From positions 1 to 31,400 of the IMG/VR virus record IMGVR_UViG_3300021091_000264: a stretch of 31,400 nt of DNA. One strand, 5' to 3'. Numbering within the stretch: the stretch's first letter is position 1; the number at the start of each line of letters is the position of its first letter. This document shows positions 1,776-20,660 of the stretch, one piece after another. A model generated the notes under the pieces. The model was given only the letters and a program-made list of their open reading frames with translations, had not been told where the DNA came from and ran no database searches. The stretch comes from a virus. A program made the position numbers and the translations under genes.

Positions 1776-4700
1776 ATGGCTCTTACTAGACTTGATAATC
1801 TTTATTCAAGCAAGACTGGCAAATATCTATACGTATCTCCAGACGATTTCAATGCAACCGATGAATTAGATAATAGAGGAAATTCTCCTCTACGTCCTTT
1901 TAAGACAATTCAAAGAGCTTTTATTGAAGTAGCACGTTATTCGTATCTTCCTGGTAGAAATAACGATAGATTTGATCAATTCAGCATCATGCTGATGCCT
2001 GGTAATCACTATATTGATAACCGTCCTGGTTTGATTGAATCTTCTAATCCAGAGCAAAGATATCTAGATGGTGCTAACCTAATTGAACTTAATAGACAGG
2101 AAATCATTGATAGATCTGCTGCTGAGGTTGCTGTACAGCATCCAGATTTTTCATATCCTAATGATCCTGTAACTGGTTCTTACTCTAGATTTAAAGATGC
2201 TTATCGTCTAATTCAACTAAATCGTGCTGAAATTGTAACATCTGCATACGATCAAATTGCAATTTCCCATCCAACATTTGTAAATCCAGATCCAGCAAAA
2301 TGCCAGCGTGATATTGGATATTTTATTGATGCTCTATCGTTAGATATTGCACAAGCTGGTGGTAATGTTTATACTCGTAAATTTATTTTACAGTATTTTG
2401 ATAGTGCTGGTGCTCTCACTTCAAATGGTCTTCAAGGAGAGATTACAGAATCTATCACTGGTTTTAATAAAGCACGTGATGAAATGATCAAAGCGATGAC
2501 CAATCAGCTTACGATCAAAGATCTTTCGATAACTGCTGATCCTTTAACTGGATCAAATACTAACCCAAATTCTTGTGCAAACGTCGCCAGTGCAATTACA
2601 ACTCTTGCACTACAGGTATCAACTGTACTTACTGCAGGAAATCTGTCATCTCTACAAAACGAACAGATTTCTACTAATATTCCTGCTGGCGAACTAAAGT
2701 GCCGTAGAGATATTGGTTATATTATTGATGCAGTACAAGCAGATTTGAGAACAGGTGGTAATAGCAACATTATCTCTGCTACAAAAGCATATTTTGATAG
2801 AGATGGAAATCCAATCAACAATGGACTTGTAAACGAAACTGCAGAATCTATTACTGCTTTTAATAAAGCACGTGATATGATGAAGTTAGCTGTGACTAAT
2901 TCATTATATGGAAAAGATCTTACAATTGCTGTTGGTCCTGCAATTGCTGGAGCATCAACACCTACAATTACATATGGTTCTTCTGGTAATGTTGCAACAT
3001 GTGTTGATGTTCAAAATACCATCACTACATTAATTGCAATTCTTACTACATCTGTTGGTGCTGGAAATCTCACATCACTAGCTGCTGTTACAGCAACAGG
3101 AAATATTCCTGTATTTAACTTTAATAGAGCACTTCAGGAATGGCAAGACAATTCTATTCTAGATCTCAGCAATCCCGACAACGTTCTTTATAAATTTAAT
3201 GCAACTTCTGGTGGTTGTATTGTACCTAGAGGTTGTTCACTGATTGGTTATGATCTTCGTAGAACAATTATTCGTCCACTATATGTTCCTGATCCTGCAG
3301 ATGGAAATCAGGAAAGAACTTCTGTCTTTAATTTAACTGGCGGTTGCTATATCTGGCAGTTTACCATTAAAGATGGTGACCTCTCTTCAAATTCACCACT
3401 GTTTGATGCAACCGCTGGAGTTGGTAAAGTTTACTTCCAGAAGGGTAATACAACTAATTTAGCAGTTCCTGAATTCTCTCACCATAAGATCACCATCATG
3501 ACTTATGCTGATACAGAGGAACTCGATCGTTACTATGAAAAGGTTGGTAGATCTTTTGCACAATTCCAACCAACAATTGATGATGGAGATTTTGAAGCTC
3601 TTGTACAAGAAAATCGTATTGTTGGTCCTCTATCAGATACAAGAAGAATTGAAAGCATTAAAGTACAAGATTCCATTTCATTTACTGGTACTGCAGTAAA
3701 TAATAATGCTGCTATTACAAATGTTTCTAGTGTTGCGGGATTAAATCTTGGAGATGGCGTAAGAAGTAATAGTCCAAGTATTACAATTCCAACAAATACT
3801 GTAATTAATTCTATTGTAGGAACAACAGTAACTTTATCAAATCCTGTAACTGGATCTGGTAGTGTCTCTCTATCAGCAACAACTGGAAAAATTACTGCAA
3901 CTGTAACTACTAAGATTGATCATGGATATTTTGTTGATCAGTATATTGCAATTTTAAATTCTGGTTTAAATGAGCAAATAAATGGTACTTTTAAAGTATA
4001 TTCAATTGATCCAACAAATCCAAAAGTATTCCAATATCAGATTCAAGCAACTACTGCTGCTCTTGGATTGACCGATGGAACTACATATACTATTTCTAGT
4101 GGATTAGGAACAAATGCTGTAGCACAAGCAGAAATTGATAGCGTCGAATCTGCTTCTCCATATGTTTTCAACTGTTCAATTAGATCTACTTGGGGCATGT
4201 GTGGTGCCTGGGCAGATGGATCAAAAGCAACAGGATTTAAGTCCATGGTTGTTGCTCAGTACACGGGTGTTTCTCTACAGAAAGACGATAGAGCATTCAT
4301 TCGCTACGACAAACTAACTAATACTTGGAACCAAGCATCACTAACTGATGCTTTTGCTACTGTTCCTTATCACGCAAAAGGTGACGCTTATTGGAAAGAT
4401 GATTGGAGAAACTTCCATATCCGTGCTTCTGATGACGCATTCGTTCAGAACGTTTCTGTGTTTGCTGTAGGTTTCTTTGATCACTTCCTGATGGAGAGCG
4501 GTGGTGACATGTCAATCACCAACTCCAACTCTAACTTTGGCAATACTTCTCTACACGCTATTGGTTATAAAGGATTTGCTTTCAACCAAGATAAGGGTGG
4601 ATATATTACTGATATTATTCCTCCAAAAGTTATTCGTGAGAGTGTTCAAGATAAAATTCAATACTATACTCTTGATATTCAAGCATCAAATAGTGCAGCA

Positions 4701-7700
4701 AATAATACCAGACTTTACTTAGGTTCTGATGATCTAAATGATCCTGCTGATCGACCAGCAGTAACTGTTTCTGGATATAGAGTTGGATCAAGAACAAATG
4801 AAAGATTATATGTAAAACTTGATAACGGAACTTATTATTCAACTTTAGAACCAACAGGATTTTTACGTTACACTGCTTCTATTGATACTTTAAATCCATC
4901 TGGTATCTCTATCAATAATTTAGCACAAGATGCAGCAAACTTAATTAATTTAAATAAGCAATTCATTCAAAGCGAAGCATATAACTATATCATACAAAAA
5001 TATCCATATTTAACTACTAGAACTTCAATTAATATTGGCAAGTGTGAAAGAGATATTGGATACTTTGTTGATGCTGTAGTATCAGACTTGAGACTTAGTG
5101 GCAATATTAATACTATCCAAGCAGCAGAAGCATATTTTGTTGGGGGTGCTCTAACATATATTCCAAACGAACTTGGGGAAAGTTTAGAAACTTATGATTA
5201 TGTGAAGAATATGTCTATTGCTGCAATGAGGAATTGGGATTTCCTTATTCGCAACTGTACTATTACATCTGGATCCAACATTGTTGATGTAGGAAGCACT
5301 GCAGGATTGCTCATTGGAATGAGTGTTAAAGAGTATTCTGCTGCATCATTTAATGCAGATGGTCAACTTATCGGAACTCCATCACAAATTACAACTGCTA
5401 TTCCTGCAAATACTTACATTAGAAGAGTTCTTGATGCAAGTAGAATTGAACTTGGTGTTCTTGGTAGTAAGTTAACCACAGGATCAACTGTAAATGCTAG
5501 TGCATCCCGTCCAGGTAGTGCGTCTCTGTACTTTGAAATTACTGATGGATCATTCTCCACTACATTAGATCCGCAGAAAGATACTACTGTATCTACAGTA
5601 AATGCTGGATATCCAGAATGTGCTGCTATTGCAACTACAATCACTGGTTATTTCAATAATATTTCTGTTATTCTTAATCAAGGATTAACTCCTCTTGGTG
5701 GTAGAGAAGCTGATGCTCATAATTTAATTCTAGCAAATAAAGCATTAATCGCTGAAGTTGCTGTTGCTAGAATGTTAGCAAACTTCCCAGGTTTCTCTGT
5801 TCCAGGTGGTAATCAAGAATGTGTTGATGATATTATTGCTTCAATTGAAACAATCGCATTTAATGTTAAGTACGGCGGAAATAGCAGAGTTTATGATGCA
5901 GCTGCAATTTATGTAACTAATCCTAATTATCTTGATGGCGAAGAAACACAAGCAGTTTATGCTTATACTCAAGCAAGAGATATGATGATCCAAGCAATGC
6001 GTAATGAAGCAATTACGATTACTGGATCTACTAGAACTCAATTTACCGATTCTACTATTGTTGCTGATCCGCTCTCTCCTGCTTGTGCTGACATTGCTAA
6101 TACGATCACTACATTAACGAGTATTATTACTCAAGGTATTGGAACTTCTTCTACTAACGGTAATTTAACTGGCATTACAAGAACTGCTCCAGTTATTACT
6201 TCAGTAACTAGAGTTGAACCTGTTTTAGACCTTGCTAATCTTGCAAAAAGAGCAACTATTTTTACAATTAATACTGGTAGTGGCACAACAAATCCACATA
6301 ACTTTGAGACTGGTACACCTGTTAGATTGGTTCCTAGGGCAAAAGCAGGAAGAAATCCAGATAAAAGAGTTATCAGATTACCAATAGGATTTTCTACAAA
6401 TGAGAAGTACTATGTAATTGCTCCTGGTAGAGGTACAAAACCAGAAGACTATGCATCTACAACTGCATTTAATGGTTCTGCTCAAACTAAGTTGATGCTA
6501 GCATCAACAAAAGAAAATGCAGCTGCGGGTATTTACATCTATTCACCAGAGACAGATAGCGTTGATCCAAATATTGAAATTGAAATTCAGCAGTATGTTC
6601 TTGATGATGTATATGATCTTCATAAGTATACTTGCAATATTGCTGGAGCAGGAGAGATTGAAACAGATGTCGCACACATCTTTGATCTTCCAAATGCTTC
6701 TGTAACTCCACAAAAAGTATTTTTCCGCTTAGCAACAGATATCATTGGTTCTGATTTACCAGAAATTGCTGGCTTTGGAACTATTAATACTAGAACATAT
6801 TACTTTGCTCGTTATATTACTGCTAAGAAGTTTAGTATTCATAATAGTCATTTAGAGGCTATTGCTGGAACGAATGCAGTTTCATTTGTTCCTGCCAGTG
6901 GTCAAAACTTCTATGTCTTTGCAGACAAGAGAAGAAGTCCTATTAGATTTGATGCTAATTATAGTACAGCAACAAATACCAGTGGACTTTGGTATGTTCA
7001 GGTTAAAGACGAATCTACTGCAGGTCCAACATTTAGAGCAGATTCTATTTTAACAAGGTTCCACGATCCTATTGCTTATGGTCCTGGGTCTGGTAAAATT
7101 AGAACTCTTGATACATGGATTAATCGTGTAAGAGATGATAGAACCGAGGGTGATCGTGTCTATCGTCTAAGATATGTTATTCCATCATACTTAACTACTG
7201 TTAGGGATCCTCTCAATGGATTTGTTCTAAAAACAAGAACAGATGATAAGAGAAGATTAGTATCACAAAAGTTTATTTTGATTCCTATTGCTGGAGCTCC
7301 AGCAGTTGCTAGGTTTGATAACCCAGCACAACCAGGAGAAATTCTTGGATCCACACGAGCAGAATTTACTTCTGCGGGCATTAGTCCAACATATGATCCA
7401 TATCTAAGAGCAAAAGTTGTAGAAAGCACAAGAACTCAAAGTAGAATTGCATTCTCTATTCAATCTGCAAGAAAAGTAACAGTAAGCGGCAATCAAAGAT
7501 TAGAAATTGTAGCGTATGATCATACAATTACAGTTGATGCTCTGAAGAATGAAATTTTTACAATTGTAGAAATAAATGCACCTCAGGGAGGATCATTTGT
7601 AGTAAGTAATTCTACTGCATCTAGTGCAAACCGAGTTACTTGGACTGGAAATACTAACGGTTCTGGATTTATTCAAGGATACTTTAATGTAGGAACTAAG

Positions 7701-10700
7701 CATTACTTAGTATTGAAGAACACAACTGGATCTATTGCTTACAATAGACTAGTCAATACTAGATTTACGCAAGGTGCAGTATATGCAGATCTTCTTGCAA
7801 AACCAAATAGTATTGGAGATCCTGCAGGAAAAGATAAATCAAGCAGAAAAGATTATCTTTATAGAATAGAAGGTGCTAACGTTTATACTTTAGTTCCTGG
7901 GGATATTGTAACAGATGATCAATCTAATCAGTATCGTATTGAAAGTGTTGAAGATGTTGGAGAACTTCAAGATACTTTCTACATTTTTGATATTGATACA
8001 ATTCAAGAAAGAATTTCAGGACAGCAAGATGGAGTTTACTATCTAACTTGCTTGCGTGGTAATATTTCGCCATATCCTCAAGGTGCTGGTGTAGGTGAAA
8101 ACTTCCAAAACTTTAGGTTCTCGCAACCAATCTCGCAGTTGTATCCACAAAATTACAAGAATGATCCTGTTTGGTTCAAACAAATTAATCCAAACTACAA
8201 TGATGTTCCTGCAACAAAATCTGCTGCAGATAACTATATTCATGGATTGGTGACTGTTAATGATGTGAAGTTCAGTGAAACCAAAGAGATGGTCGAAGAT
8301 TTAGTTAGACAACCTGCTCTCTCTAGATTTACTTTTGTAAGTTCAGATACTCTTAGTAGCCCAACTTTAAATCCTGCTGGTGGATCTAATATTATTCAAG
8401 CACAAAATGGAAATGCTGCTTCTGGATCAGAAGATCGTCGTATTCCAATTTCTGGAGATTCTGCTTATCCACTAGAGCAAAAACTCTATGTAGAACTTCG
8501 TAGACCATCTATTGCTCGTTCTGGTAACCACACGTTTGAATATCTAGGTTTTGGTCCTGGTAACTACTCAACTGGTTTTCCATTGCGCCAAGAAGTTGTT
8601 CTTGAAGATGTTCAAGACTTCTATGCACAATCGAAGAGAGAAGATGGTGGCATCGTTTTCTACACTGGTCTAAACTCTAATGGTGATCTTTATATTGGTA
8701 ATCGTAAAGTTAATGCTATCACTGGTGAAGAAACATTTCTTGAGAGAGCAATTCTAGAAGAAAGTGCAGATGATAGTACTGATGACCTTGGTGGACTTGT
8801 AACCACATTTGATACTCCAGTAACCTTTAATAGTAGAATTACTGTAGAAGGAGATTCGGTCTTTAACAATCCTGTATCAATTGTTATGGATGCTACCGAG
8901 GGTCCCGCTCTCACAATTCCTAGCGTAATTGATCCAACTTCTGGACTTGATCAATCAATTAGCACTGCAAATACTGGATCTATTATCATTCATAGAAATA
9001 GAGTTGCTGCGGCTGTTTATGCAATCAATCCTCGTCAGATACTTGGAGACAACGGTCAACCATATACGCTAAGAACACATTATACTACAACACTGGGTCC
9101 AACAAACGTTTCACCTGATCAAAGCGCAACATTTAATGCTTCTCAAAATGTAAATTATGGTTCATCTGAAACTCCAAGATCTGGTGATATACTATTCAAA
9201 GGTGATGAAGTTGGACTTTCTGGATCTATTGGTTGGATATATGCTAACTATTATACAGAAATTGTAGCAGCAAATCTCGCAACTTTAACTAGTGATGGAG
9301 TGTACATTACTGTTAATCTTGCCCCTGGTATTACAAATTCTGCTATTAATATAAGTGCAAATTCTATTATTAGAATATCTGGATTTACAGCAAACCCAAA
9401 TCTAAATGGAAACTGGCAAGTTGTTTCTACTGGAACTCCTCTATTCTCACCATCTGGAACATCATTTAGATTCTTACCAACAGTTCCTCCAGCATCTGCT
9501 ACTACTTATACTTGGTCAACTGTAACTGGGGCAAAACTAGAAGTTTCAAGAGAAAAGTGGAAAGAGGTTGGTGTTGTTGGTGCTGAAACTCTCCGAACAA
9601 ATACCGAAATTTGGGGTGATTATAAACTTGGTATTAATACCCTTGCCAGGGCGACTGATAATGCATATCGCACAGCATTTATTGAGAGCGCAACTTCTCC
9701 TAGAGCAAATCTTGATGTAGTTGGAAACACATTTATTTCTGGTAAATCTACAGCAATCACAGTTTCTGGCGGTGCTCAATCTAAAGTTGTTTCTAATTTA
9801 GATAATGCTTTAATTGTAGGAGGAGATAGTGCAACTCCAAATAATGAAGCAGTCTTTAGAGTTTCTACAACTCCTGGTCCTTTAGGAAAAGGAAGAGTTG
9901 GAATTAATGCTTCTGTCGCTCAACTAACAACTGCTGCTACTGATGTTGTTGTTTTCGGAAGCACCAGTTTCAATGGAAACATGTTGCTTACTGGCACATT
10001 TACAACAAATATTGGTACTATTGACACTAATAGCACTACTTTAGATCTTGCAGCAACTCCAACAACAGTTAGATTTGCAGCTGCTGCGACTACTGTACAA
10101 ATTGGAAATGCTATCGGAACAACTGGTAGTCAGACTATTGACGTTGGAAATTTTGCATTAACTTCAAACGTTAAAATTGGTGATGCTGCACAAACAAGCA
10201 CTTTATTCATACACAGAAATTCTAGAAATGCACAAGTTGATATTGCTTCTGTAGATAATACAAATGCTGCATATGTTTGCAGCGTTATAATTGGTGGTGC
10301 TTTCTCTAATTCTTCTTCCGCAACATCAATCAAAACTAGAAATATTAATCTAGATGGAGATGTAAATGTTGGTTCTGGATTTACGGCAGGTTCTGGAACT
10401 GGTAAGTTATATTCATTAAATTCTAGATTTGAACTTCTTGCTGCAAGCGGTGGACCAGCAATTGTTAAATTTGCTACTACTGCTTCTGATCTTGAGATGG
10501 CATCTCAAGGTGGAACTACAACTATTAATAATGCTTTGCGAGTAAAAGCCAGAGCAGATTTTGATGGAGATATTAAACTTTCTGGTGGTCTAAATTCTGG
10601 TGGAGTTAGTGTAGAGAGGGGAGTTTTTGGAACAACTCCTGCTGCCCAAGCAGTTGGATCTTTACCATCTAATTTTAACCTAGATTTATACAGAAAAGTT

Positions 10701-12896
10701 AGCATTGGAAAAACTCTTGACACTGGTGGTTTCTCAACACTCACTTCAACAGATACTATTATTAAATTAAATCAAGTAGTTGCTCCTGGTGAAATTAATC
10801 TTGGTGATTATTTACTACTTGATGAATCTGCGGCATTCCCTGGAGCTCCTGTTCCTTACACTCCAAACGAAGATAATTCTGAGATTGTAAGAGTTACTGA
10901 CCTAACAAACTTAACAAATACTACAGATCCAGATGGTATTCGAGTAACAGTAACTAGAGGAGTTGATGGAACAACAGCAAGATCTCATTCAGATAATCTT
11001 CCTATTGTAAAACTTAATAAGTCTTCAAACGTTAGTTTCTCAACTGTAGCAATGACAGCTAGTTCTACTGTATTACAAACAGCAGAATTTGGTGGTTCTT
11101 TACTAGTAAATGATTTTATTAGAATTAATAGCAGTACTTCTAGCGAGTATTTAAAAGTTGCTTCTCTAATCTCTGCTCTAACATCAGTTCAATCTCTAAA
11201 CATTACTGATGGCGGAACTCCAGAAGTTCTATCCTTTAAAGTTACTTCAACTACAGGAGAAACTTATATTAGAGGAGCAACTGAAGTACATAATAATCTT
11301 ACATTGGTTGGATCATCAACTCCAAATAATAGAAAATTAACAATTACAGATGGTGTATTCGCATCACCAACCACTACATTTACTGTAGATAGTGCAACGG
11401 GAAATACTAGCATTCTTGGTAATTTAAACATTGGACAATCTTTTAATAAATTAACAATCAATGCAACAAATGGAAGTATTATATCAAATGGTGGAGACAT
11501 TACAGTTAATGATAATGCAGCATCTGTTGTTACTTCAACTGTAGCAGCAACTCTTACTATTAATGTAAGACCTGATGGCGCTACTGCAGATTTACCCGCG
11601 ACTGGTGGTACAGCACCCGTTTCAATGCTTGGAAATGATCCAATCGGAACATTAATTGCTGGTGCTCAGAATAGAAATCCTGCTGTTACTTGGACAGCAA
11701 CATTACCCGCAGCAGTTACTGCAGCTGGCATTTCTATTGGAAGTTATACTGTTTATTTGGAAGATTTAAGTTCTGTTGATCCTATAACTGGAAGACCAAA
11801 AATACATTGGTTTGTTGAAAATATTCCTTCTTCTACAACAACTATTGCAGCAAACGCAACTTCTTTACCATCTGGAACAAATATTAGAAATAATTATATT
11901 GGAGCAGTTGGTTCTTTAGGAGTTAGTGCAGTTGGATATGCTGGACCACAACCACCAGCTGGTCGAAATCACACCTTTAGATTAACTGTAATTGCAGTTC
12001 TTTCTGGAACTAGAACTACATCTACATTAAGATCTTCTATTGAGTTTAATTATGATCCTGCAGGCGCAGCTGCTGCAGTAGTTCCACCAACATATTCAAA
12101 TAATTTAAATGTTCAAATTTTTGGCGTTGCTACTAGAAAGTTACTTTTCCAAAATACTACTGCAAATCTATCAATTGGAGGTCTGTTCACGAGTGAAGCG
12201 ACTACAGGAACAAACTTGTTCTCAAGTGATTTAAGACTTGATGGTGGCGATTTGATCGTTAATAGAGGAAATGCATGGGCAGCATCTACTGCAGTTGCTG
12301 TTGGAGATATTCTTCTTGCTGGAGGAACTACCTACAGAGTTACACAAGCTGGAACTACAGGAACTGGTGCTCCAACTCATACAACTGGATCAGCATCAAA
12401 CGGAGGAGCAATATTACTTGTTGCTCCACACTTTAGAGCAAAGAATAATGGAACTATTGATATGGGAGGCATAGAAAACTTCTATGGTCCTTCTGGTGCT
12501 AGAAGGTGGGATTACTTAGCGACTGGATCTGGAGATGGCGGAGTTATTAGATCAAATCTAAATTATTTCCTAGTTGTAAGTGGTGATTTATATGTCAAAC
12601 TTCCAACAGATGCAAGAAGTGGTGATGTAATTAGATTTGTTGATCTAAGTGGTTCTCTTGCATATAACGTTAAATTTATCGTTCGTGCTCCAACTGGCGT
12701 TTCAATTCAAGGAGATAGCACAAATATTGCACCAACTGCTGTCGGAGTTCCATTAGTAGGATATAATGGAGGTGAATTGATTGTAACTACTCCAAATGCT
12801 GCTTTTGGACTTATCTATGCTGGTCCATTAAATAATGATGGCACTTCTTCTGGAATACCTACTGCTCAACAAGGTTGGTGGTTAATGGAGATCTAA
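1776..12896 (+). CDS. giant fibre-like virion structural protein, 3706 aa
   Basis: Very long Ser/Thr/Asn/Gly-rich beta-type protein behind a late promoter and ahead of three collar-domain fibre genes, so almost certainly part of the tail fibre or baseplate periphery. The N-terminus carries RGNSPLRPFKTIQRAFIE (34-51), which resembles the first turns of pectin-lyase-type beta-helices; helix-like stretches recur near 478-540 and 880-950. Four copies of a unit with a C-x-R-D-I-G-Y type motif lie at about 140-440 and 1045-1470. A 'VSSVAGLNLGD'-type module at 634-702 recurs inside copy 3 at about 1160-1252. Residues 3281-3411 resemble the PEBP/YbhB fold. Residues 3497-3549 look like the W-A-S-T...Y-R-V-T-Q-A-G-T carbohydrate-binding-like repeat of other fibres. 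The end (about 3590-3706) is a compact beta domain. No endosialidase-type autoprotease is visible. Similar giant proteins occur in other cyanophages; the exact virion position is unknown. Confidence 0.9.
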   Translation: MALTRLDNLYSSKTGKYLYVSPDDFNATDELDNRGNSPLRPFKTIQRAFIEVARYSYLPGRNNDRFDQFSIMLMPGNHYIDNRPGLIESSNPEQRYLDGANLIELNRQEIIDRSAAEVAVQHPDFSYPNDPVTGSYSRFKDAYRLIQLNRAEIVTSAYDQIAISHPTFVNPDPAKCQRDIGYFIDALSLDIAQAGGNVYTRKFILQYFDSAGALTSNGLQGEITESITGFNKARDEMIKAMTNQLTIKDLSITADPLTGSNTNPNSCANVASAITTLALQVSTVLTAGNLSSLQNEQISTNIPAGELKCRRDIGYIIDAVQADLRTGGNSNIISATKAYFDRDGNPINNGLVNETAESITAFNKARDMMKLAVTNSLYGKDLTIAVGPAIAGASTPTITYGSSGNVATCVDVQNTITTLIAILTTSVGAGNLTSLAAVTATGNIPVFNFNRALQEWQDNSILDLSNPDNVLYKFNATSGGCIVPRGCSLIGYDLRRTIIRPLYVPDPADGNQERTSVFNLTGGCYIWQFTIKDGDLSSNSPLFDATAGVGKVYFQKGNTTNLAVPEFSHHKITIMTYADTEELDRYYEKVGRSFAQFQPTIDDGDFEALVQENRIVGPLSDTRRIESIKVQDSISFTGTAVNNNAAITNVSSVAGLNLGDGVRSNSPSITIPTNTVINSIVGTTVTLSNPVTGSGSVSLSATTGKITATVTTKIDHGYFVDQYIAILNSGLNEQINGTFKVYSIDPTNPKVFQYQIQATTAALGLTDGTTYTISSGLGTNAVAQAEIDSVESASPYVFNCSIRSTWGMCGAWADGSKATGFKSMVVAQYTGVSLQKDDRAFIRYDKLTNTWNQASLTDAFATVPYHAKGDAYWKDDWRNFHIRASDDAFVQNVSVFAVGFFDHFLMESGGDMSITNSNSNFGNTSLHAIGYKGFAFNQDKGGYITDIIPPKVIRESVQDKIQYYTLDIQASNSAANNTRLYLGSDDLNDPADRPAVTVSGYRVGSRTNERLYVKLDNGTYYSTLEPTGFLRYTASIDTLNPSGISINNLAQDAANLINLNKQFIQSEAYNYIIQKYPYLTTRTSINIGKCERDIGYFVDAVVSDLRLSGNINTIQAAEAYFVGGALTYIPNELGESLETYDYVKNMSIAAMRNWDFLIRNCTITSGSNIVDVGSTAGLLIGMSVKEYSAASFNADGQLIGTPSQITTAIPANTYIRRVLDASRIELGVLGSKLTTGSTVNASASRPGSASLYFEITDGSFSTTLDPQKDTTVSTVNAGYPECAAIATTITGYFNNISVILNQGLTPLGGREADAHNLILANKALIAEVAVARMLANFPGFSVPGGNQECVDDIIASIETIAFNVKYGGNSRVYDAAAIYVTNPNYLDGEETQAVYAYTQARDMMIQAMRNEAITITGSTRTQFTDSTIVADPLSPACADIANTITTLTSIITQGIGTSSTNGNLTGITRTAPVITSVTRVEPVLDLANLAKRATIFTINTGSGTTNPHNFETGTPVRLVPRAKAGRNPDKRVIRLPIGFSTNEKYYVIAPGRGTKPEDYASTTAFNGSAQTKLMLASTKENAAAGIYIYSPETDSVDPNIEIEIQQYVLDDVYDLHKYTCNIAGAGEIETDVAHIFDLPNASVTPQKVFFRLATDIIGSDLPEIAGFGTINTRTYYFARYITAKKFSIHNSHLEAIAGTNAVSFVPASGQNFYVFADKRRSPIRFDANYSTATNTSGLWYVQVKDESTAGPTFRADSILTRFHDPIAYGPGSGKIRTLDTWINRVRDDRTEGDRVYRLRYVIPSYLTTVRDPLNGFVLKTRTDDKRRLVSQKFILIPIAGAPAVARFDNPAQPGEILGSTRAEFTSAGISPTYDPYLRAKVVESTRTQSRIAFSIQSARKVTVSGNQRLEIVAYDHTITVDALKNEIFTIVEINAPQGGSFVVSNSTASSANRVTWTGNTNGSGFIQGYFNVGTKHYLVLKNTTGSIAYNRLVNTRFTQGAVYADLLAKPNSIGDPAGKDKSSRKDYLYRIEGANVYTLVPGDIVTDDQSNQYRIESVEDVGELQDTFYIFDIDTIQERISGQQDGVYYLTCLRGNISPYPQGAGVGENFQNFRFSQPISQLYPQNYKNDPVWFKQINPNYNDVPATKSAADNYIHGLVTVNDVKFSETKEMVEDLVRQPALSRFTFVSSDTLSSPTLNPAGGSNIIQAQNGNAASGSEDRRIPISGDSAYPLEQKLYVELRRPSIARSGNHTFEYLGFGPGNYSTGFPLRQEVVLEDVQDFYAQSKREDGGIVFYTGLNSNGDLYIGNRKVNAITGEETFLERAILEESADDSTDDLGGLVTTFDTPVTFNSRITVEGDSVFNNPVSIVMDATEGPALTIPSVIDPTSGLDQSISTANTGSIIIHRNRVAAAVYAINPRQILGDNGQPYTLRTHYTTTLGPTNVSPDQSATFNASQNVNYGSSETPRSGDILFKGDEVGLSGSIGWIYANYYTEIVAANLATLTSDGVYITVNLAPGITNSAINISANSIIRISGFTANPNLNGNWQVVSTGTPLFSPSGTSFRFLPTVPPASATTYTWSTVTGAKLEVSREKWKEVGVVGAETLRTNTEIWGDYKLGINTLARATDNAYRTAFIESATSPRANLDVVGNTFISGKSTAITVSGGAQSKVVSNLDNALIVGGDSATPNNEAVFRVSTTPGPLGKGRVGINASVAQLTTAATDVVVFGSTSFNGNMLLTGTFTTNIGTIDTNSTTLDLAATPTTVRFAAAATTVQIGNAIGTTGSQTIDVGNFALTSNVKIGDAAQTSTLFIHRNSRNAQVDIASVDNTNAAYVCSVIIGGAFSNSSSATSIKTRNINLDGDVNVGSGFTAGSGTGKLYSLNSRFELLAASGGPAIVKFATTASDLEMASQGGTTTINNALRVKARADFDGDIKLSGGLNSGGVSVERGVFGTTPAAQAVGSLPSNFNLDLYRKVSIGKTLDTGGFSTLTSTDTIIKLNQVVAPGEINLGDYLLLDESAAFPGAPVPYTPNEDNSEIVRVTDLTNLTNTTDPDGIRVTVTRGVDGTTARSHSDNLPIVKLNKSSNVSFSTVAMTASSTVLQTAEFGGSLLVNDFIRINSSTSSEYLKVASLISALTSVQSLNITDGGTPEVLSFKVTSTTGETYIRGATEVHNNLTLVGSSTPNNRKLTITDGVFASPTTTFTVDSATGNTSILGNLNIGQSFNKLTINATNGSIISNGGDITVNDNAASVVTSTVAATLTINVRPDGATADLPATGGTAPVSMLGNDPIGTLIAGAQNRNPAVTWTATLPAAVTAAGISIGSYTVYLEDLSSVDPITGRPKIHWFVENIPSSTTTIAANATSLPSGTNIRNNYIGAVGSLGVSAVGYAGPQPPAGRNHTFRLTVIAVLSGTRTTSTLRSSIEFNYDPAGAAAAVVPPTYSNNLNVQIFGVATRKLLFQNTTANLSIGGLFTSEATTGTNLFSSDLRLDGGDLIVNRGNAWAASTAVAVGDILLAGGTTYRVTQAGTTGTGAPTHTTGSASNGGAILLVAPHFRAKNNGTIDMGGIENFYGPSGARRWDYLATGSGDGGVIRSNLNYFLVVSGDLYVKLPTDARSGDVIRFVDLSGSLAYNVKFIVRAPTGVSIQGDSTNIAPTAVGVPLVGYNGGELIVTTPNAAFGLIYAGPLNNDGTSSGIPTAQQGWWLMEI
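2190..3110 (+). repeat. Cys-pair repeat units 1 and 2 in the giant protein
   Basis: Two tandem protein-level units. Each has an L-I-x-L-N or equivalent lead-in, then K-C-x-R-D-I-G-Y-x-I-D-A (Cys 176 and Cys 309), D-hydrophobic-x-x-G-G-N, an A-Y-F/Q-Y-F block, the F-N-K-A-R-D-x-M helix, and a second Cys (267 and 409) before an I-T-T-L helix and G-N-L-x-S-L. The Cys-Cys spacing is 91 and 100 residues. The DNA is diverged, so these are old duplications, not recent slippage. Confidence 0.8.
4900..6190 (+). repeat. Cys-pair repeat units 3 and 4 in the giant protein
   Basis: Unit 3 has K-C-E-R-D-I-G-Y (Cys 1090) and its second Cys at 1282. Unit 4 has E-C-V-D-D-I (Cys 1349), A-R-D-M-M-I-Q-A-M and its second Cys at 1437. 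Unit 3 is about 90 residues longer because a separate beta module is inserted between the two halves at about 1160-1252. Unit 4 has lost the R-D-I-G-Y core but keeps both cysteines. Confidence 0.75.
11621..12010 (+). other. PEBP/YbhB-YbcL-like domain inside the giant fibre protein
   Basis: Residues about 3281-3411 follow the order of motifs of phosphatidylethanolamine-binding proteins: N-P-A-V-T-W-T, then a strand with S-Y-T-V-Y-L-E-D, then H-W-F-V-E-N-I-P (His 3344), an S-L-P-S-G segment, G-Y-A-G-P-Q-P-P-A-G (3387-3396), and N-H-T-F-R-L-T-V (His 3399). The two His correspond to the anion-pocket histidines of the family. The D-P-D of the usual D-P-D-A-P is changed here, so the pocket may bind a different ligand. 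The identification is by motif order only. Confidence 0.7.
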
Positions 12897-12899
12897 TAG

Positions 12900-14168
12900 A
12901 TGGCAAATTACGGTAGATTAAAAACTATGAAAGCGGCAGCGATCGGTACGATCCTGCCCTGGACGGGTGATATTACAAGAATACCAAAAGGTTGGTTGAT
13001 ATGCAATGGTGCTGCAATACAAGCAGCAGATTATCCTTTATTAGCTCAGGCAATTGGTAATACATATGGAGGAGCAGGATTTAATTTAGCAGATTTTCCT
13101 ACATTTCCTGCACAAACAATATCTTTGCCCAATATTGATCAAAAAGCATTGATGGATTGCGATCCATCTTATTTTGGCGCTGGTGCAATTGATGCAAATA
13201 TTGATACAACTGCAGCAGGAACTGTAGTAACACCATTTATTGGTGCAAACACGGATATTGCTGCCCCGAATAGAACTCCAGATGCAAATACAGATATTTT
13301 ATTTCAGTATGCACCACAAACTCTTTCTGGAACAATTACTGGTGCTACTTTCAATCCTGGATTTGGGGTTAGAACAATTTATACTGGAGCAAGAAAATTA
13401 GGAAGAAGACATTTACCATCTCACTCTCACCCAACTGAAGTTCCTAGTACTATTGGACTTAATCTTATACAACCAGGAGCAGGAGTTTCATGTTCAAGAA
13501 CAGTAACTTATAATTTTATTAAAAGAGGTGGAGATGATATAGATGGAAACCCTCAAATTCAATGGCAAATTAGTTATCCTGGCAGTACTGGATTTGGAAA
13601 TGGAAGTGCTGGAGTTGTTCTTGGAAACATTGTTGGTGAAAATCCTGGACCAAACCTAATCCCGAAAGAGGCCTATTCTCATGGAATATCTAATTGGATC
13701 GGAAGCGCAGATGCACCAGAACCTCCAGATCCTTTTAAAGGTCCATCTAATCCCCCTGCACACAATAGAAATTTTAATATAGCTGATCCAGGATGTCCAT
13801 ATGGTTTGGGCGGAACAACAGTTCCTACACAAAATATAAATTTCGATTCTGGCGGCAATCCAAATACTGGTGATGGAACAACAGGAGATCAACATTTACC
13901 ATATGAAACATTTTTTAATCATTCTGGAATAGAATTTAATAAAACAGTTTCTACTCCAGGAGTGACTGATATAATTAATGCCCATGATCATGCAACTTTT
14001 GATATTTCTTACGATAGAACTGGATCTTCTTTAGGTATGCCAGGAAGTTTAACATCTAATAATGTAGTTGCAAATATTACTCCTGATAATCTTCCAGGTG
14101 CTCTAAATATTACAGTTACGCAACCAACTCCCAAAGTAATCGTTATTTACATAATCAGAGCATATTAA
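12900..14168 (+). CDS. tail-collar-domain fibre protein, 422 aa
   Basis: The N-terminal 15-85 matches the phage tail collar domain: IGTILPWTGD, then P-K-G-W-L-I-C-N-G-A, Y-P-L-L-A-Q-A-I-G-N-T-Y-G-G and a Pro-rich strand ending in L-P-N-I. The middle is Gly/Asn/Pro-rich with His clusters (H-L-P-S-H-S-H near 175, H-D-H near 364) of the kind that bind metal in fibre tips. The C-terminus ends V-I-V-I-Y-I-I-R-A-Y, shared with the next two proteins. A ribosome binding site (GGAG) precedes the ATG by 9 nt, and the gene starts 3 nt after the giant gene's stop, so it is in the same late operon. Likely role: short or distal fibre contacting the host surface. Confidence 0.85.
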   Translation: MANYGRLKTMKAAAIGTILPWTGDITRIPKGWLICNGAAIQAADYPLLAQAIGNTYGGAGFNLADFPTFPAQTISLPNIDQKALMDCDPSYFGAGAIDANIDTTAAGTVVTPFIGANTDIAAPNRTPDANTDILFQYAPQTLSGTITGATFNPGFGVRTIYTGARKLGRRHLPSHSHPTEVPSTIGLNLIQPGAGVSCSRTVTYNFIKRGGDDIDGNPQIQWQISYPGSTGFGNGSAGVVLGNIVGENPGPNLIPKEAYSHGISNWIGSADAPEPPDPFKGPSNPPAHNRNFNIADPGCPYGLGGTTVPTQNINFDSGGNPNTGDGTTGDQHLPYETFFNHSGIEFNKTVSTPGVTDIINAHDHATFDISYDRTGSSLGMPGSLTSNNVVANITPDNLPGALNITVTQPTPKVIVIYIIRAY

Positions 14169-15042: not shown

Positions 15043-18000
15043 ATGGCACTTTTAACACTTCAGTATCTAACCCCAGGAAGAACACCAATTACGTTACCAT
15101 CAACTGTAACTACTTTTACATATACAGTTGATGGTGCTGGTGGCGGTGGCGGTGGCGTTGATGCAGGAAGTCCTGGTGGTCCTGGTGGCAGGGGCGCCCG
15201 TATTCAAGGAACAATAACTGGTATTACTGGAGGATCACTTGAAATTTATGTTGGCGGCGGCGGCGGTGCGGGTGCATCTGGTGGAGGTGCAGCAGGAGGT
15301 GCGGGTGGAACGAATGGTGGCAACGGTGGTGGAGGACGTGGAGCCAATTCTGGTCCTCAAGGATCCTCTGGAGCGGGCGGTGGAGGCGGCGCTGCATCAT
15401 ATCTAGTTCTTAATGGAACAATTATTGTCGCTGCAGGCGGTGGAGGCGGCGGCGGTGGTGGTGGAAATGACGGAGGACCCCTTCAGTCTTTCCAAATAGC
15501 AGGAAATGCTACTACCTCTTTGTCTACCAGCAATACTTTAGCATCTGGTGCTAATGCTACAAATCATCCTACTGATGGAGGTGGCGGTGGTGCTGGCGGT
15601 GGCGGATCGGGACCTGGAGGTGCTGGATTTACTCCTACGGTTGCAGGAGCTGGTGGTGGAGATACTGATGCAGGTGGAGGATCTGGTGGAGGTAATTATT
15701 ATAATAATACATCTCATACTGCTGCCCCATCTGTATCAATAGCAGGTGGCATTGGTGGAGGATCTTCGTCTTCGGGATCAAATGGAGCAATTACAATTGT
15801 TTATGATGACACTGATGATACACCAAATCCTGTTGCAAATTTCGCGACAATTCTGAATGCAACTAGAAGCACTGCTTACACTACAACAAATTCGGTTACT
15901 GTTTCTGGAATTAATGTTTCTGTTCCAGCGATAGCAAATAATAGCGCAATTATTGTTAAAAATGGAGCATCTACAGGAAGTTCTAGTACTACAGTGGTCA
16001 ATGGAGATACTTTAGCTCTTACTCAAACATCTTCTTCTTCCTATTCTACTCTTGTGTCAACAAATTTAACGATTGGACCCACTGGTCGCAGTGTTGATGC
16101 AATCTTTAATATCGTTACAGAAGATGCACCAGTAAATAGACCAAATTCTTTTGATTTTGTTGATGTTGTAGATGCACCACTGAATACATTTATCACAAGT
16201 AATTCCGTAACAATTACTGGATTAACTGCAACTGCTTCTGTAACTGCCACTGCTAGCGCAGCTGGGGCACCTGTTACTAACATAACAGTTGTTATAAATG
16301 GAGTAGATACTGGATCAAATACTGGAAATATTAGCAATGGACAAACATTGGCTTTGCGTTTGAGAACTAGTAATGCTGTAAATACTACCACTACAGCATC
16401 TGTGGTAGTAGGAAGTGGCGGTGCGGTTGATTGGAATGCAAGAACAGTTGTATTTGAAGATACTGCACCAGATTTGTATAATTTTACTGATATTACAAAT
16501 GCTGCTGCATCTTCTGTAGTAACAAGCAATGTCCAATCAATTTCGGGAATTAATACAAGTGCTCAAGTTTCTATTACAGCAGGATTTGAAGTTAGTATTA
16601 ATGGTGGGGCATTTGTTACACCCACTGCGGCAACTACAATTAGCAATGGTCAAACATTGCAGTTGAGAGGAACTGCTTCTGCAATTCCTGGTGCATCAGT
16701 AACAGCAACTGTTAATATTGGCAATCCAGTTACAGGAGAACTTGCAGACACTTGGATTATAACTTCTGGTTTGGCAGGAGATACTACACCAGATCCATTT
16801 ACTTTTGCAGATAGATTTAATCAATTAGCAGCAGTACTTGTTTACAGTAATCAAGTTACCCCCAGTGGATTTACTGCATCTTCTACTTTAACTGTAACTA
16901 GATCTGGAGCGTATCTTGCTGCAAATCCAGAAGTTTCTGTTGATGGTGGTACTACTTGGACTGCTCTAGGTGTAGGATCTTATACAAATACTTCCTTTAC
17001 TCCAGGTATGACAATACAATTGAGAGCTACTTCTTCTGCTTATGGGTCAGCAACTAGTACATTGAGTATTACTCTTGGATCTTATTCTACAACTTGGGCA
17101 ATTAGAACTTTGTCTGCAGCACCCGTTGGAGCAAATAAGTCAACTTGGTATAACTCTACTCCAGGAGCTAAAATTGATGGATATGCAATTGGAACAATTA
17201 TTACTACTTTTAAAGATGCATCTGGTAACTTTGGAACTTTAGATGGTAGCTTATCTTCAAGATATCCTGGATTTATTGAATGTGATGGTAGACTTTTAAA
17301 TGCATCTGAATATCCAGCATTATTTGATATTCTTGAAAATACTTATGGAGGAACAGGATCCAAAGTTCTTGCAGGAGGTACATGGACATACTCTGGACAA
17401 TTTAATATTCCTAAAATTAGAAATAGAAGATTGTTTGGAGTGGGTCAAGTTGATGGTAATTCTCCTGCTTCACCAGCGGTTCCTACAAGAAAAGGACCAG
17501 CTGGAACTGGAGCAGGATCTGTGAATACTGTTGGTTCTGTTGGAGGAGATTGGTACATTGCTACAGTAGATGCTGCTGGAACTTTACCATTAGAACAGGT
17601 AGAGGGAACTCCGCCATCAGGAACAACAGGTCAATTTTTTGCTTTAGGAACAGTAACAACAATAGGATATTCTAGTATTTCTGGCACTGTTAATTTTAAT
17701 GTGGCAGGGGATATAAGAGCTTCTGTAGGACCACTTTTAGGAACATTTGTCGATGCACCATCACATACCCATACAATAATAACGGGACAAAGTTTGTCAG
17801 CAACAACAGGATTAGTTCCATGGGGATCGAGAGCTACAGTTGGTAATTCTGGTACTATTTCAGGAACTAATTCTACTGCAAGTCAATTTCCAGGCGGCCC
17901 AAGTTTTTCACCATCTAATCTTTCACTTGCAGATCAAACTGGAAGTGTTACATATAATAATTTTTGGTCTTCTCCAAGAGATACTACTGTTCAATTAGAT

Positions 18001-18378
18001 AATTCGGCGCCTGGTCTCATTATCTGGATGGGAGCATTAGATACACTTCAGACAACTGCAACAACTAGAGTTTACAGTGCAACTGGTGGAACTTTGACAC
18101 ATACTCATTATTTGTCTACTACAGATTTTGGTAACACTTCAAATATTTTCAGTTGGGGAAATGTAAATGGTGCTGGTGTTAAAACAGGTGGAATGGGAGG
18201 CGGTAATACAGTAGATGTTAACTTTACACATACTGAAATGGGATCTAGAGTTAATCCTGGAACTTTTACTTTAAGTAGTGCAACTGCTATATTACCACAA
18301 GTAGCACTTAGACCGAACAGAACAATTCCATTGATACAACCATTTTTCAGAGTAAAGTACTTAATCAAAGCATACTAA
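15043..18378 (+). CDS. adhesin-like tail fibre: Gly-rich head, four Ig-like repeats, collar domain, 1111 aa
   Basis: Four regions are visible. Residues about 29-250 are extremely glycine-rich, with ...GAASYLVLNGTIIVAAGGG, the layout of ALK/LTK-type glycine-rich domains and reminiscent of the polyglycine-II adhesin of T-even gp38 proteins. Residues about 258-687 hold four Ig-like repeats of 106-109 aa. Residues about 706-770 are a collar domain (Y-A-I-G-T-I-I, P-G-F-I-E-C-D-G-R-L-L-N-A-S-E-Y-P-A-L-F). The rest is a beta-rich tip with H-T-H-T and T-H-T-H-Y, ending F-F-R-V-K-Y-L-I-K-A-Y. It starts 2 nt after the previous stop without a clear ribosome binding site. It is the best candidate here for the receptor-binding protein, by inference. 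Confidence 0.85.
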   Translation: MALLTLQYLTPGRTPITLPSTVTTFTYTVDGAGGGGGGVDAGSPGGPGGRGARIQGTITGITGGSLEIYVGGGGGAGASGGGAAGGAGGTNGGNGGGGRGANSGPQGSSGAGGGGGAASYLVLNGTIIVAAGGGGGGGGGGNDGGPLQSFQIAGNATTSLSTSNTLASGANATNHPTDGGGGGAGGGGSGPGGAGFTPTVAGAGGGDTDAGGGSGGGNYYNNTSHTAAPSVSIAGGIGGGSSSSGSNGAITIVYDDTDDTPNPVANFATILNATRSTAYTTTNSVTVSGINVSVPAIANNSAIIVKNGASTGSSSTTVVNGDTLALTQTSSSSYSTLVSTNLTIGPTGRSVDAIFNIVTEDAPVNRPNSFDFVDVVDAPLNTFITSNSVTITGLTATASVTATASAAGAPVTNITVVINGVDTGSNTGNISNGQTLALRLRTSNAVNTTTTASVVVGSGGAVDWNARTVVFEDTAPDLYNFTDITNAAASSVVTSNVQSISGINTSAQVSITAGFEVSINGGAFVTPTAATTISNGQTLQLRGTASAIPGASVTATVNIGNPVTGELADTWIITSGLAGDTTPDPFTFADRFNQLAAVLVYSNQVTPSGFTASSTLTVTRSGAYLAANPEVSVDGGTTWTALGVGSYTNTSFTPGMTIQLRATSSAYGSATSTLSITLGSYSTTWAIRTLSAAPVGANKSTWYNSTPGAKIDGYAIGTIITTFKDASGNFGTLDGSLSSRYPGFIECDGRLLNASEYPALFDILENTYGGTGSKVLAGGTWTYSGQFNIPKIRNRRLFGVGQVDGNSPASPAVPTRKGPAGTGAGSVNTVGSVGGDWYIATVDAAGTLPLEQVEGTPPSGTTGQFFALGTVTTIGYSSISGTVNFNVAGDIRASVGPLLGTFVDAPSHTHTIITGQSLSATTGLVPWGSRATVGNSGTISGTNSTASQFPGGPSFSPSNLSLADQTGSVTYNNFWSSPRDTTVQLDNSAPGLIIWMGALDTLQTTATTRVYSATGGTLTHTHYLSTTDFGNTSNIFSWGNVNGAGVKTGGMGGGNTVDVNFTHTEMGSRVNPGTFTLSSATAILPQVALRPNRTIPLIQPFFRVKYLIKAY
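15127..15790 (+). other. polyglycine-rich adhesin-like domain
   Basis: About 220 residues dominated by runs of Gly (up to ten in a row near residue 135), broken by short hydrophobic strands such as S-L-E-I-Y-V and T-I-I-V-A-A. Codons GGT, GGC and GGA are mixed, so it is not a simple nucleotide repeat, although it is visibly more GC-rich than the rest of the late block. Such lattices can present variable loops for host contact. Confidence 0.7.
15814..17104 (+). repeat. four tandem Ig-like repeats of about 107 aa
   Basis: Units begin near residues 258, 366, 475 and 582, at P-x-x-F/Y-x-F-x-D or similar, followed by V-x-S-N-x-V-x-I-S-G-I/L, a variable strand, and N-G-Q-T-L-x-L-R (N-G-D-T-L-A-L in unit 1) and a closing x-V-x-I-G. 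The spacing is 109, 109 and 107 residues. They would form a rod between the glycine-rich head and the collar domain. Confidence 0.8.
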
Positions 18379-18411: not shown

Positions 18412-19032
18412 ATGATACCACCGATTAAACCATTAGAAATAATGAAAGATGAAAATATCACTGAGTTTGAATTTTCTGATTTTATTGGAGTTTGGGATAA
18501 ATTTGTTCCCGCATATCTTTGCGAAACATTAATCAATCATTACGAAGAAGTTATTACTACAGGATCTTTTTTAGTTGGAGAAAATCAATTTCCAGAAAGA
18601 AACTTAGGAAGATCCGATTTATCTATTTTGTTAAATCAAACTGATAATGAACTAGCTAGCAGTATAAATCAATATTTGCAAGCATGTGGAACACATTATG
18701 TTGATAGATTTTCACAATTAAAAAATATAAAATTATTTTCAAGTGATTTGAAACTTCAACGTACACAACCAGAAGGTGGATATCATGTTTGGCATTATGA
18801 AAATAGTGAATATTCTGTATGTACTAGAGAACTTGTGTGGATCATTTATTTGAATGATATTCCAGATGGTGAAGGAGAAACAGAATTTTTATATCAACGT
18901 AGAAGAATTAAACCAACACAAGGAACTGTTGTAATCTGGCCTGCGGGAATGACACATGTACACAGGGGATTAACTGTTTATACTAAAGATAAATATATAT
19001 TGACTGGATGGTATCTAAAGGTTCCGAAATGA
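18412..19032 (+). CDS. 2OG-Fe(II) oxygenase, 206 aa
   Basis: Prolyl-hydroxylase-like member of the 2-oxoglutarate/Fe(II) dioxygenase superfamily. The iron-binding triad is probably His128-x-Glu130 in the stretch YHVWHYENSE and a distal His at 182 or 184 in TGMTHVHRG-like context (here A-G-M-T-H-V-H-R-G). A Lys or Arg a few residues on would bind 2-oxoglutarate. E-G-E-T-E-F-L-Y lies between, at the place of the usual G-G-x-x-x-F. It has Glu where most relatives have Asp. The ATG at 18412 follows a purine-rich GAAGAAG. The next gene overlaps by 4 nt (ATGA). Its place right behind the fibre genes suggests a fibre or host protein substrate, which is inference. Confidence 0.8.
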   Translation: MIPPIKPLEIMKDENITEFEFSDFIGVWDKFVPAYLCETLINHYEEVITTGSFLVGENQFPERNLGRSDLSILLNQTDNELASSINQYLQACGTHYVDRFSQLKNIKLFSSDLKLQRTQPEGGYHVWHYENSEYSVCTRELVWIIYLNDIPDGEGETEFLYQRRRIKPTQGTVVIWPAGMTHVHRGLTVYTKDKYILTGWYLKVPK

Positions 19033-19955
19033 CAGAGATAGTTTCAAATAGATTAGATGAATCTCAACGTTCATTAAAAACATCTATTTTAGAAGTTAAT
19101 TTTTCTAATAGAATTGTTGTTCGTGGTACAGTAGCTACAGAGATTAAAGAAGATGTTTGGAATGATATTATCCTTACTCAACTTGGCACTACTTGGCATG
19201 ATCCTAATAAAGATGAGATAGAATTTTTCATTTATAATGATGATGGAACATATTTTTGTCAAAGAAAAAGATCCAGAATGGATTTTAAAACAGGATTTTT
19301 TTATTGGAGATCTTATCAATATTATGAAGCTTCTGATGAAGAAGCTTTAAGAATATATAATATTTTTCGTGATTTTGCTGAAATTCAACGTTTTGACAGA
19401 ACGACAACTTATATTGAAGAAGCACAAAAATTATTTGATTCGCAATCATACTTTCAAGATAAGTATCAAAAAAGAAGAAGACAAATTTCGCTAATGCTTC
19501 TTTATTCTGATTGGAGAATGACTATTGATTATGAAGAGGAATTTGAAGGCGAACAAGAAATGTGGAAAGAATGGAGAAGAAGACTTAGAAGATGTTTGCC
19601 AGATTATGAAACTTTTGACAATCCATATGAAGCATTTAAATTTGTTTCAGTTCTAAAATATCCTATTGATCCTAATGTTTATTTTGAAAGATATCCAGAA
19701 GGTAAAAATGCTGATGGAGATGAAGTTGCTTACTTGTCAACTGACGATCAATATGATAGACTAGATTTTATTGTATCTAAAGACTTTGTTGCTGCTAGTA
19801 TGGAAAATATATTAGATCTTGTCAATAATTTTGCTGATCAAGAAGTAGAAATTACTTTACAAGTAAAACAAATTTTAGATGATTTGAATGCCTGGGATTA
19901 CTTCCCAACATTGCGTCAAGATTTAATTAAGGTCATGCATGATACAAGTTCTTAA
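19029..19955 (+). CDS. probable tail/fibre assembly chaperone-like protein, 308 aa
   Basis: No full-length family is recognised. The core R-R-R-Q-I-S-L-M-L-L-Y-S-D-W at about 155-168, then an acidic stretch, W-K-E-W-R-R-R-L-R-R at about 184-193, resembles the phage tail assembly chaperone pattern (R-x-x-L-L-x-x-S/C-D-W ... W-x-x-Y-R-x-x-L-R) of proteins encoded next to fibres. A second half (Y-P-I-D-P-N-V-Y-F-E-R-Y-P-E-G onward) is helical and acidic. I chose ATG 19029, overlapping the previous stop as ATGA and preceded by AAAGG, over an ATG 21 nt upstream. It may help fold or attach the collar-domain fibres. Otherwise its function is unknown. Confidence 0.6.
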   Translation: MTEIVSNRLDESQRSLKTSILEVNFSNRIVVRGTVATEIKEDVWNDIILTQLGTTWHDPNKDEIEFFIYNDDGTYFCQRKRSRMDFKTGFFYWRSYQYYEASDEEALRIYNIFRDFAEIQRFDRTTTYIEEAQKLFDSQSYFQDKYQKRRRQISLMLLYSDWRMTIDYEEEFEGEQEMWKEWRRRLRRCLPDYETFDNPYEAFKFVSVLKYPIDPNVYFERYPEGKNADGDEVAYLSTDDQYDRLDFIVSKDFVAASMENILDLVNNFADQEVEITLQVKQILDDLNAWDYFPTLRQDLIKVMHDTSS

Positions 19956-19987
19956 ACAGAACAAAGATTAACAAGATAGAATAATTA

Positions 19988-19995
19988 TATAAATG
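19988..19995 (+). promoter_or_regulatory. late-promoter-like box TATAAATG
   Basis: Seven of eight bases match TATAAATA. It lies in the 57-nt gap before the second oxygenase gene, 18 nt ahead of its ATG. This is the only gap over 10 nt between 18412 and 22377, so an internal late start is plausible. Confidence 0.35.
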
Positions 19996-20012
19996 AGCTT
20001 ACAATTTCACCT

Positions 20013-20660
20013 ATGATCTACACACTTGATTTATTAGATATTGTAGCTGTAAAAACTATTAATGAGTTTTATAATTTTTGTGATTTTGTAGATGGGTCTA
20101 TTTCTGGATCTCATAATAAAAATAAAAAGCACAATGAACAGTTACAGGATACAATTCATCAGTCATCACTGACAGATTTTGTTGATAGAGAAATTAAAAA
20201 ATGTGAAAAATTATCATATTTGTTTGTTCCTAGAGCAACTACATATCCTATATTTTTAAGATATACAGAAGGTATGCATTATGCATACCATAATGATTTT
20301 TATCAAATGTTTGGAGTTAAAACAGATTACAGTGTTTCTTGTTTTTTAAGTTCTCCTGATGATTATGAAGGAGGAGAATTAGTTTTAAATATTGGTGATA
20401 GAGAATTAGAATATAAGTTAAATCCTGGAGAATGTGTTGTTTATCCAACAGGAACACTTCATAAGGTAAATGAAGTTACATCTGGACAGAGAAATGTAAT
20501 GGTTTTTTGGATAGAATCTTGTATTGTTGACAGCAGAGTAAGATCAATATTTACAGAGTATTCAAATTTGATGTTGAAGAGATCAGATCTTGTTCAACAA
20601 AGTTCAGCAGATTTTGAAGCAATTAGATATCAAATCATGAGAGAATATGGACAATTCTAA
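20013..20660 (+). CDS. 2OG-Fe(II) oxygenase, PKHD-type hydroxylase-like, 215 aa
   Basis: The dioxygenase signature is clear: His93-x-Asp95 in YAYHNDFYQM, the E-G-G-E-L strand at about 119-123, Y-P-T-G-T-L-H with His150, and Arg160 in S-G-Q-R-N for 2-oxoglutarate. This layout is that of the PKHD/PiuC-type hydroxylases. The N-terminal 40 residues contain a Lys/Asn/His-rich linker. The C-terminal 30 residues are helical. It overlaps the next gene by 14 nt. It is a different branch from the 18412 protein, so the two are unlikely to be recent duplicates. The substrate is unknown. Confidence 0.87.
   Translation: MIYTLDLLDIVAVKTINEFYNFCDFVDGSISGSHNKNKKHNEQLQDTIHQSSLTDFVDREIKKCEKLSYLFVPRATTYPIFLRYTEGMHYAYHNDFYQMFGVKTDYSVSCFLSSPDDYEGGELVLNIGDRELEYKLNPGECVVYPTGTLHKVNEVTSGQRNVMVFWIESCIVDSRVRSIFTEYSNLMLKRSDLVQQSSADFEAIRYQIMREYGQF

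Follow-up and report, generated by a model that had tools for sequence, protein, structure and literature searches.

The DNA analysed here (31,400 nt, or 31.4 kb), referred to below as the window, comes from the IMG/VR virus record IMGVR_UViG_3300021091_000264. Its closest DNA matches are Synechococcus phages, e.g. S-PM2, and we infer that its host is a marine cyanobacterium. The window encodes a giant tail fibre, near the C-terminus of which lies a domain of the phosphatidylethanolamine-binding protein (PEBP) family. This unusual fusion had been proposed from the DNA letters alone (the original prediction), and is borne out by Pfam, profile and fold searches. The fibre gene and the elements of the module are given below, with pocket residues numbered as in human PEBP1, a numbering which we take from family knowledge and carried over via the alignment.

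1776..12896, + strand: giant tail fibre gene of T4-like cyanophage gene cluster 734, encoding 3706 aa (phrog_4527, i.e. PHROG 4527, E=0; synteny with S-PM2, Syn1 and S-CAM1)
11547..12062, + strand: PEBP-fold module, residues 3258-3429 (PF01161 match, AlphaFold2 model, PDB fold matches)
11763..11765, + strand: Asp 3330, aligned with pocket Asp70 of PEBP (alignment)
11805..11807, + strand: His 3344, aligned with pocket His86 (alignment)
11934..11963, + strand: GYAGPQPPAG pocket loop (G110-P111 region), in which GPQP is a phage-family signature (alignment)
11970..11972, + strand: His 3399, aligned with pocket His118 (alignment)
12063..12115, + strand: C-terminal linker AGAAAAVVPPTYSNNLN, end approximate (inspection of flanks)

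The sequence motifs on which the fusion had been proposed all occur in the open reading frame in the expected order (NPAVTW at residue 3301, HWFVENIP at 3344, GYAGPQPPAG at 3387 and NHTFR at 3398), and residues 3344 and 3399, the two presumed pocket histidines, are indeed His. The span originally assigned to the domain, 11621-12010, was correctly positioned but somewhat too small, as the domain extends over about 11547-12062. Residues 3296-3408 (nt 11661-11999) match Pfam-A family PF01161 with E=4e-10 and 40.6 bits, against a cut-off of 24, and the homologous domain in the fibre of another locus, L004, matches with E=5.1e-12. The match to NCBIfam TIGR00481 (YbhB/YbcL; 3.7e-7, 30.0 bits) remains below the curated cut-off of 57.75; by profile and fold the domain belongs to the PEBP superfamily, but not to the YbhB/YbcL subfamily by the NCBI cut-off. 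A profile of 11 relatives, when compared with PDB sequences, matched YbcL (7.4e-8) and H. pylori HP0218 (8e-5). Structure prediction and profile comparison against PEBP, the checks proposed beforehand, thus gave significant profile matches and, with AlphaFold2 (AF2), a PEBP-like fold. The AF2 model from the 11-sequence alignment has a predicted local distance difference test (pLDDT) score of 85.6 and a predicted template modelling (pTM) score of 0.84; it supersedes a first model from two sequences only (pLDDT 55.7), for which PEBPs were already at the top of the fold search. In a Foldseek search against PDB, 11 of the 11 matches at E<0.001 were members of the PEBP family, including YbcL (5e-8), Rv2140c (2e-7), YbhB (4e-7), CT736, and florigens of rice and Arabidopsis, and the predicted structure superimposes on bacterial PEBPs with query-normalised TM scores of 0.60-0.66. 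The only point in favour of a generic immunoglobulin (Ig)-like domain or fibre repeat that resembles PEBP motifs by chance is the low pairwise identity to solved PEBPs (~20%). Given the PF01161 and YbcL profile matches, and a fold search in which nothing but PEBPs scored at E<0.001, such an explanation is highly improbable and is in practice refuted, and the PEBP domain in the fibre is confirmed.

The domain shares with the bacterial YbhB/YbcL proteins (TIGR00481; E. coli YbcL 1fux, YbhB 1fjj) the core fold, the motif order and, in the window copy, the pocket Asp/His/His and G-P loop. It differs from them in several respects. YbhB/YbcL proteins are free-standing and roughly 160-200 aa long, whereas the window domain forms one module of a fibre of 3706 aa; the phage domain has near-invariant Q112 and R121, scores under the TIGR00481 cut-off, and has a pocket that varies across relatives. 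Moreover, the PF01161 match of the window copy goes no further than profile position 101 of 135, and those of nearly all relatives end at 100-105 (that of L118 reaches 132). Profile positions ~102-135 (C-terminal helix and strand) are thus unmatched in the window copy, and the C-terminal helix of PEBP is not seen in the AF2 model. Since the Pfam match stops early and the model lacks this helix, the domain reads as a shortened PEBP. The best PHROG match is PHROG 5139 (phage proteins, function unknown; 2.7e-7), the profile of which is just 161 positions long, suggesting that its members are small proteins. Several other copies are followed by a P-x-[FY]-x-x-N linker resembling AGAAAAVVPPTYSNNLN, and hence the linker may travel with the PEBP module.

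Within the fibre, the domain of ~170 aa is inserted in the C-terminal part, with beta-repeat modules to either side, and lies ~280 residues from the end. The fibres of six cultured cyanophages can be aligned with both flanks of the module, and all are without the PEBP domain. From IMG/VR, 80 fibre loci were collected, of which 30 with a complete, canonical C-terminus were used for the presence count. A separate search of viral contigs, made with the fibre C-terminus, also drew in a remote protein (L011), which was left out. The PEBP domain is carried by three of these 30 homologous fibres and is absent from 27. A comparison of related giant proteins, also proposed beforehand, therefore shows both sporadic presence and a pocket that varies among fibre copies. 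Compared with the insertion site in L004, L106 and L107, that of the window copy is shifted downstream by one beta-repeat module, and the existence of two fibre sites suggests separate insertions or local shuffling, between which the domain tree does not decide.

The original observation of a PEBP domain in the fibre holds for that protein, but is narrower than reality, as several further tail proteins carry the same domain. When the 11-sequence alignment was used to scan IMG/VR, 55 viral loci were obtained, which together with earlier loci gave 40 domains after clustering at 90%. The IMG/VR records are fragments and the relatives were found through short peptide patterns; prevalence figures are from small samples. 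Five of the 40 non-redundant domains are in the giant fibre, at two different sites. Two are in the gp12-like Collar protein (L107 and L120, both of which also have a fibre copy). Most copies, i.e. 28 domains and that of L122 from a different clade, are found in a virion protein of PHROG 30655/4924 encoded three genes downstream of the fibre. One copy is carried by a podoviral nozzle protein (PF25675) in L121, a contig with a capsid gene 66-72% identical to those of Prochlorococcus/Synechococcus podoviruses. The copies in L118, L123 and L124 are in proteins with Laminin_G_3 or baseplate-like sequence, and Collar domains also occur among the carrier proteins. Wherever the annotation of a carrier protein is informative, it denotes a tail or virion structural protein, the kind of protein through which host contact is made. 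The window itself encodes two proteins of these carrier classes.

12900..14168, + strand: gp12-like short tail fibre (PHROG 4591, Collar); PEBP copy absent here, present in the L107 homologue
15043..18378, + strand: fourth cassette gene (PHROG 4924/30655, Collar); PEBP copy absent here, present in the homologues of most other loci

Family tree analysis shows first that the phage copies split from 19 sampled bacterial PEBPs (a comparison set from one phylum sample) at 100/100 support, and secondly that there were at least four changes of carrier-protein class among the phage copies. By their sequences, the phage copies appear to constitute a phage-specific PEBP subfamily, with the signature W-x-x-x-x-I-P ... 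G-Y-[SA]-G-P-Q-P ... H-x-Y-R. A more remote copy was found in AP013547, a deposited uncultured podovirus (Autographiviridae), in a protein annotated as 'cell wall/surface repeat protein'.

Several further candidates were discarded. A tblastn search with the window domain returned no phage matches at E 0.01, and no convincing tblastn match to a cultured phage was obtained; matches to the E. coli phages PhiR34_1, PhiR68_2 and PhiR70_1 had E values of 0.8-1 and were discounted as evidence. MT835538.1 (L005) was rejected as a phage tail homologue, as it encodes a free-standing PEBP beside glycosyltransferase-like genes, and is probably bacterial DNA misassigned in the phage collection. A single scan of genome contigs gave only two matches, L169 and L170, which are contigs binned into metagenome-assembled genomes (MAGs); these were not counted as cellular homologues, because their phage tail-cassette gene order points to phage contigs binned into MAGs.

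As copies occur in several tail proteins while the cultured cyanophages and 27 of the 30 complete fibres are without the domain, it appears to behave as a mobile accessory tail module that is shuffled in uncultured marine phages. Like mobile accessory domains, it is sporadically present at differing positions in several virion protein families. Such domains on virions are an already known kind: Ig-like domains of phage structural proteins are described as promiscuous mobile accessory modules (Fraser et al. 2006, as cited in PMC6949934) and are likewise accessory beta-sandwich modules, found sporadically in more than one kind of virion protein across unrelated phages. The window module differs from these in having a PEBP fold rather than an immunoglobulin fold (its best fold matches are PEBPs), with a former ligand pocket. 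The BACON repeats of crAss-like phage tail proteins (PMC6949934) are comparable in that a bacterial-type domain has been recruited into tail-associated proteins and was found via metagenomes, but they have a different fold, form tandem arrays rather than single copies, and are from gut instead of marine phages. The open-access literature searched did not yield any account of a PEBP domain in a phage tail.

The pocket residues bear directly on the possible role of the module. It had been proposed that the domain may bind a host envelope lipid or phosphate group as a receptor; in this reading the Asp/His/His of the window copy would act as a classic PEBP anion-binding site. The window copy does keep D70, H86, G110-P111 and H118, with an aromatic residue (F) at position 120, and the L004 and L106 copies likewise keep all of these, including an aromatic 120. 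As a general rule, phosphate or phospholipid binding is not upheld. D70, H86, H118 and Y120 are invariant in all 19 bacterial PEBPs, but among the 40 phage domains position 86 is His in only 19 (otherwise L, Q, N, I or C), position 70 is Asp in 27 (otherwise N) and position 118 is His in 33, so that H86 is lost in 21 and D70 in 13 phage copies, compared to none of the bacterial ones. In two of the five giant-fibre copies, L107 and L120, H86 is missing and D70 is replaced by N (the L107-type being H86L, D70N), and at least nine changes between His and non-His at position 86 can be traced on the domain tree. In contrast, W87, a Tyr, P111 and Q112 are invariant in the 40 phage domains and R121 is conserved in 38. 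Judged by this alignment, the scaffold and G-P-Q-P loop are held while the putative anion-coordinating residues drift, which argues against a fixed phosphate ligand and would be compatible with changing ligands. Cyanobacterial membranes consist mostly of glycolipids and phosphatidylglycerol, which dominate over phosphatidylethanolamine, and a membrane lipid would lie beneath the saccharides of the lipopolysaccharide. In addition, the lipid A of two marine Synechococcus strains, WH8102 and CC9311, is reported to contain no phosphate (PMC4515613). A lipid or phosphate receptor role is thus compatible with the two pocket histidines of the window copy but is weakened by their erosion elsewhere and by this lipid A composition, and we consider a dedicated anion or phospholipid binder quite unlikely. 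Most likely, the anion pocket has been retained in some copies, including that of the window, and re-tuned in others as receptors change.

Alternatively, the module could be a structural spacer or stabiliser, a robust beta-rich insert that makes the fibre longer or stiffer and has no specific ligand. The sporadic presence of the domain, the lack of a strict position in the fibre and the pocket erosion in many copies would all fit such a role, and the bacterial BACON domains recruited into phage tail proteins have been described as linkers (PMC6949934). On the other hand, conservation is higher in the pocket loop residues (GY.GPQP, Y120) than elsewhere in the domain; this is not obviously needed by a spacer, yet these residues may be kept for folding. 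We regard a purely structural role as rather unlikely.

We propose, as the probable reading, that the domain serves as an accessory host-surface-contact module, built on a PEBP scaffold whose pocket has been re-tuned, and not as a dedicated phospholipid binder. Phage fibres are usually trimers with a distal C-terminus. If this applies to the giant fibre, the module, displayed on the fibre surface, would be present in three copies near the tip, and would add a weak, multivalent contact with the host envelope, with the pocket being re-tuned in some copies as receptors change. From its location, a role in host-surface binding is likely. The analysis shows the identity of the domain, its predicted fold, its insertion, its distribution over several proteins and the variation of its pocket, whereas exposure at the distal tip, trimeric display, host binding and the class of ligand are inferred. 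Several points weigh against this proposal. The loss of pocket residues fits a purely structural spacer equally well, tip exposure is an assumption from the C-terminal position, and most copies are not in the fibre but in the protein encoded three genes downstream.

The remainder of the fibre and its surroundings show other features. The fibre gene cassette follows the cyanomyovirus order of T4-like gene clusters 734-737, and is preceded by a CpeT-like gene and four tRNA genes. Downstream of the PEBP module lies the following region.

12162..12893, + strand: fibre C-terminus 3' of the PEBP module, with AWAASTAVAVGD insertion (absent from cultured homologues) and conserved C-terminal end (alignment)

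A second insertion at ~12162-12350 (NRGNAWAASTAVAVGDILLAGGTTYRVTQAGTTGTGAPTHTTGS) is absent from cultured homologues and also found in L004; it looks like a carbohydrate-binding-type fibre module.

The same fibre holds phycobiliprotein-like repeats at 2151-2960 and 4893-5303 of the window, and homologous repeats occur in L004 and IMG/VR fibre loci. They match Pfam PF00502 (3.8e-9 in the window, 4.5e-12 in L004), and 43 of the 43 PDB profile matches at E<0.01, which cover the KCxRDIGY stretch, are named as phycobiliprotein-type proteins, for the most part phycocyanin alpha (best match 1.8e-6). K-C-x-R-D is invariant in 21 aligned repeat copies, partly by construction as copies were picked by the CxRD pattern; [KR]CxRD is found in all 53 fibres, and the repeat Cys is kept in 106 of 107 copies found without requiring Cys. 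We take the position of this Cys to be that at which phycocyanin binds bilin, Cys84. Just upstream of the fibre gene is a CpeT-family gene (window 381-941; in S-PM2 163952-164479), a family which is bilin-lyase-related, and its location is noteworthy because the fibre carries phycobiliprotein-like repeats. Adsorption of S-PM2 is reportedly light-dependent. On the basis of these similarities, the fibre may carry bilin or sense light, and may equally well reuse the repeats in a purely structural way.

Several small genes within 18412-21174, 24682-25173 and 29315-29947 of the window resemble 2-oxoglutarate (2OG)-Fe(II) oxygenases by eye, and that at 20013-20660 was confirmed by Pfam PF13640. In the S-PM2 record (NC_006820.1, 168556-173383) many tRNAs are annotated inside the fibre coding sequence; in the part tested with ARAGORN (L016, 169825-183264) no tRNA was detected, and they therefore look like annotation errors.

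Receptor-recognition domains of marine cyanophages are largely unknown. Tentatively, and with somewhat less than even confidence, we suggest that the modules represent a PEBP-fold class of phage receptor-binding module, in which a cellular small-ligand-binding fold was captured by phages and, in marine cyanomyo- and cyanopodoviruses, came to be spread over different tail proteins, its pocket evolving to follow changing surface glycans or other receptors. The PEBP module also suggests an exchange of tail modules between cyanophages of the myovirus and podovirus types. A recognisable small-ligand-binding fold that some fibres have and their close relatives lack, and for which natural pocket variants exist, offers a directly testable handle on adsorption specificity.

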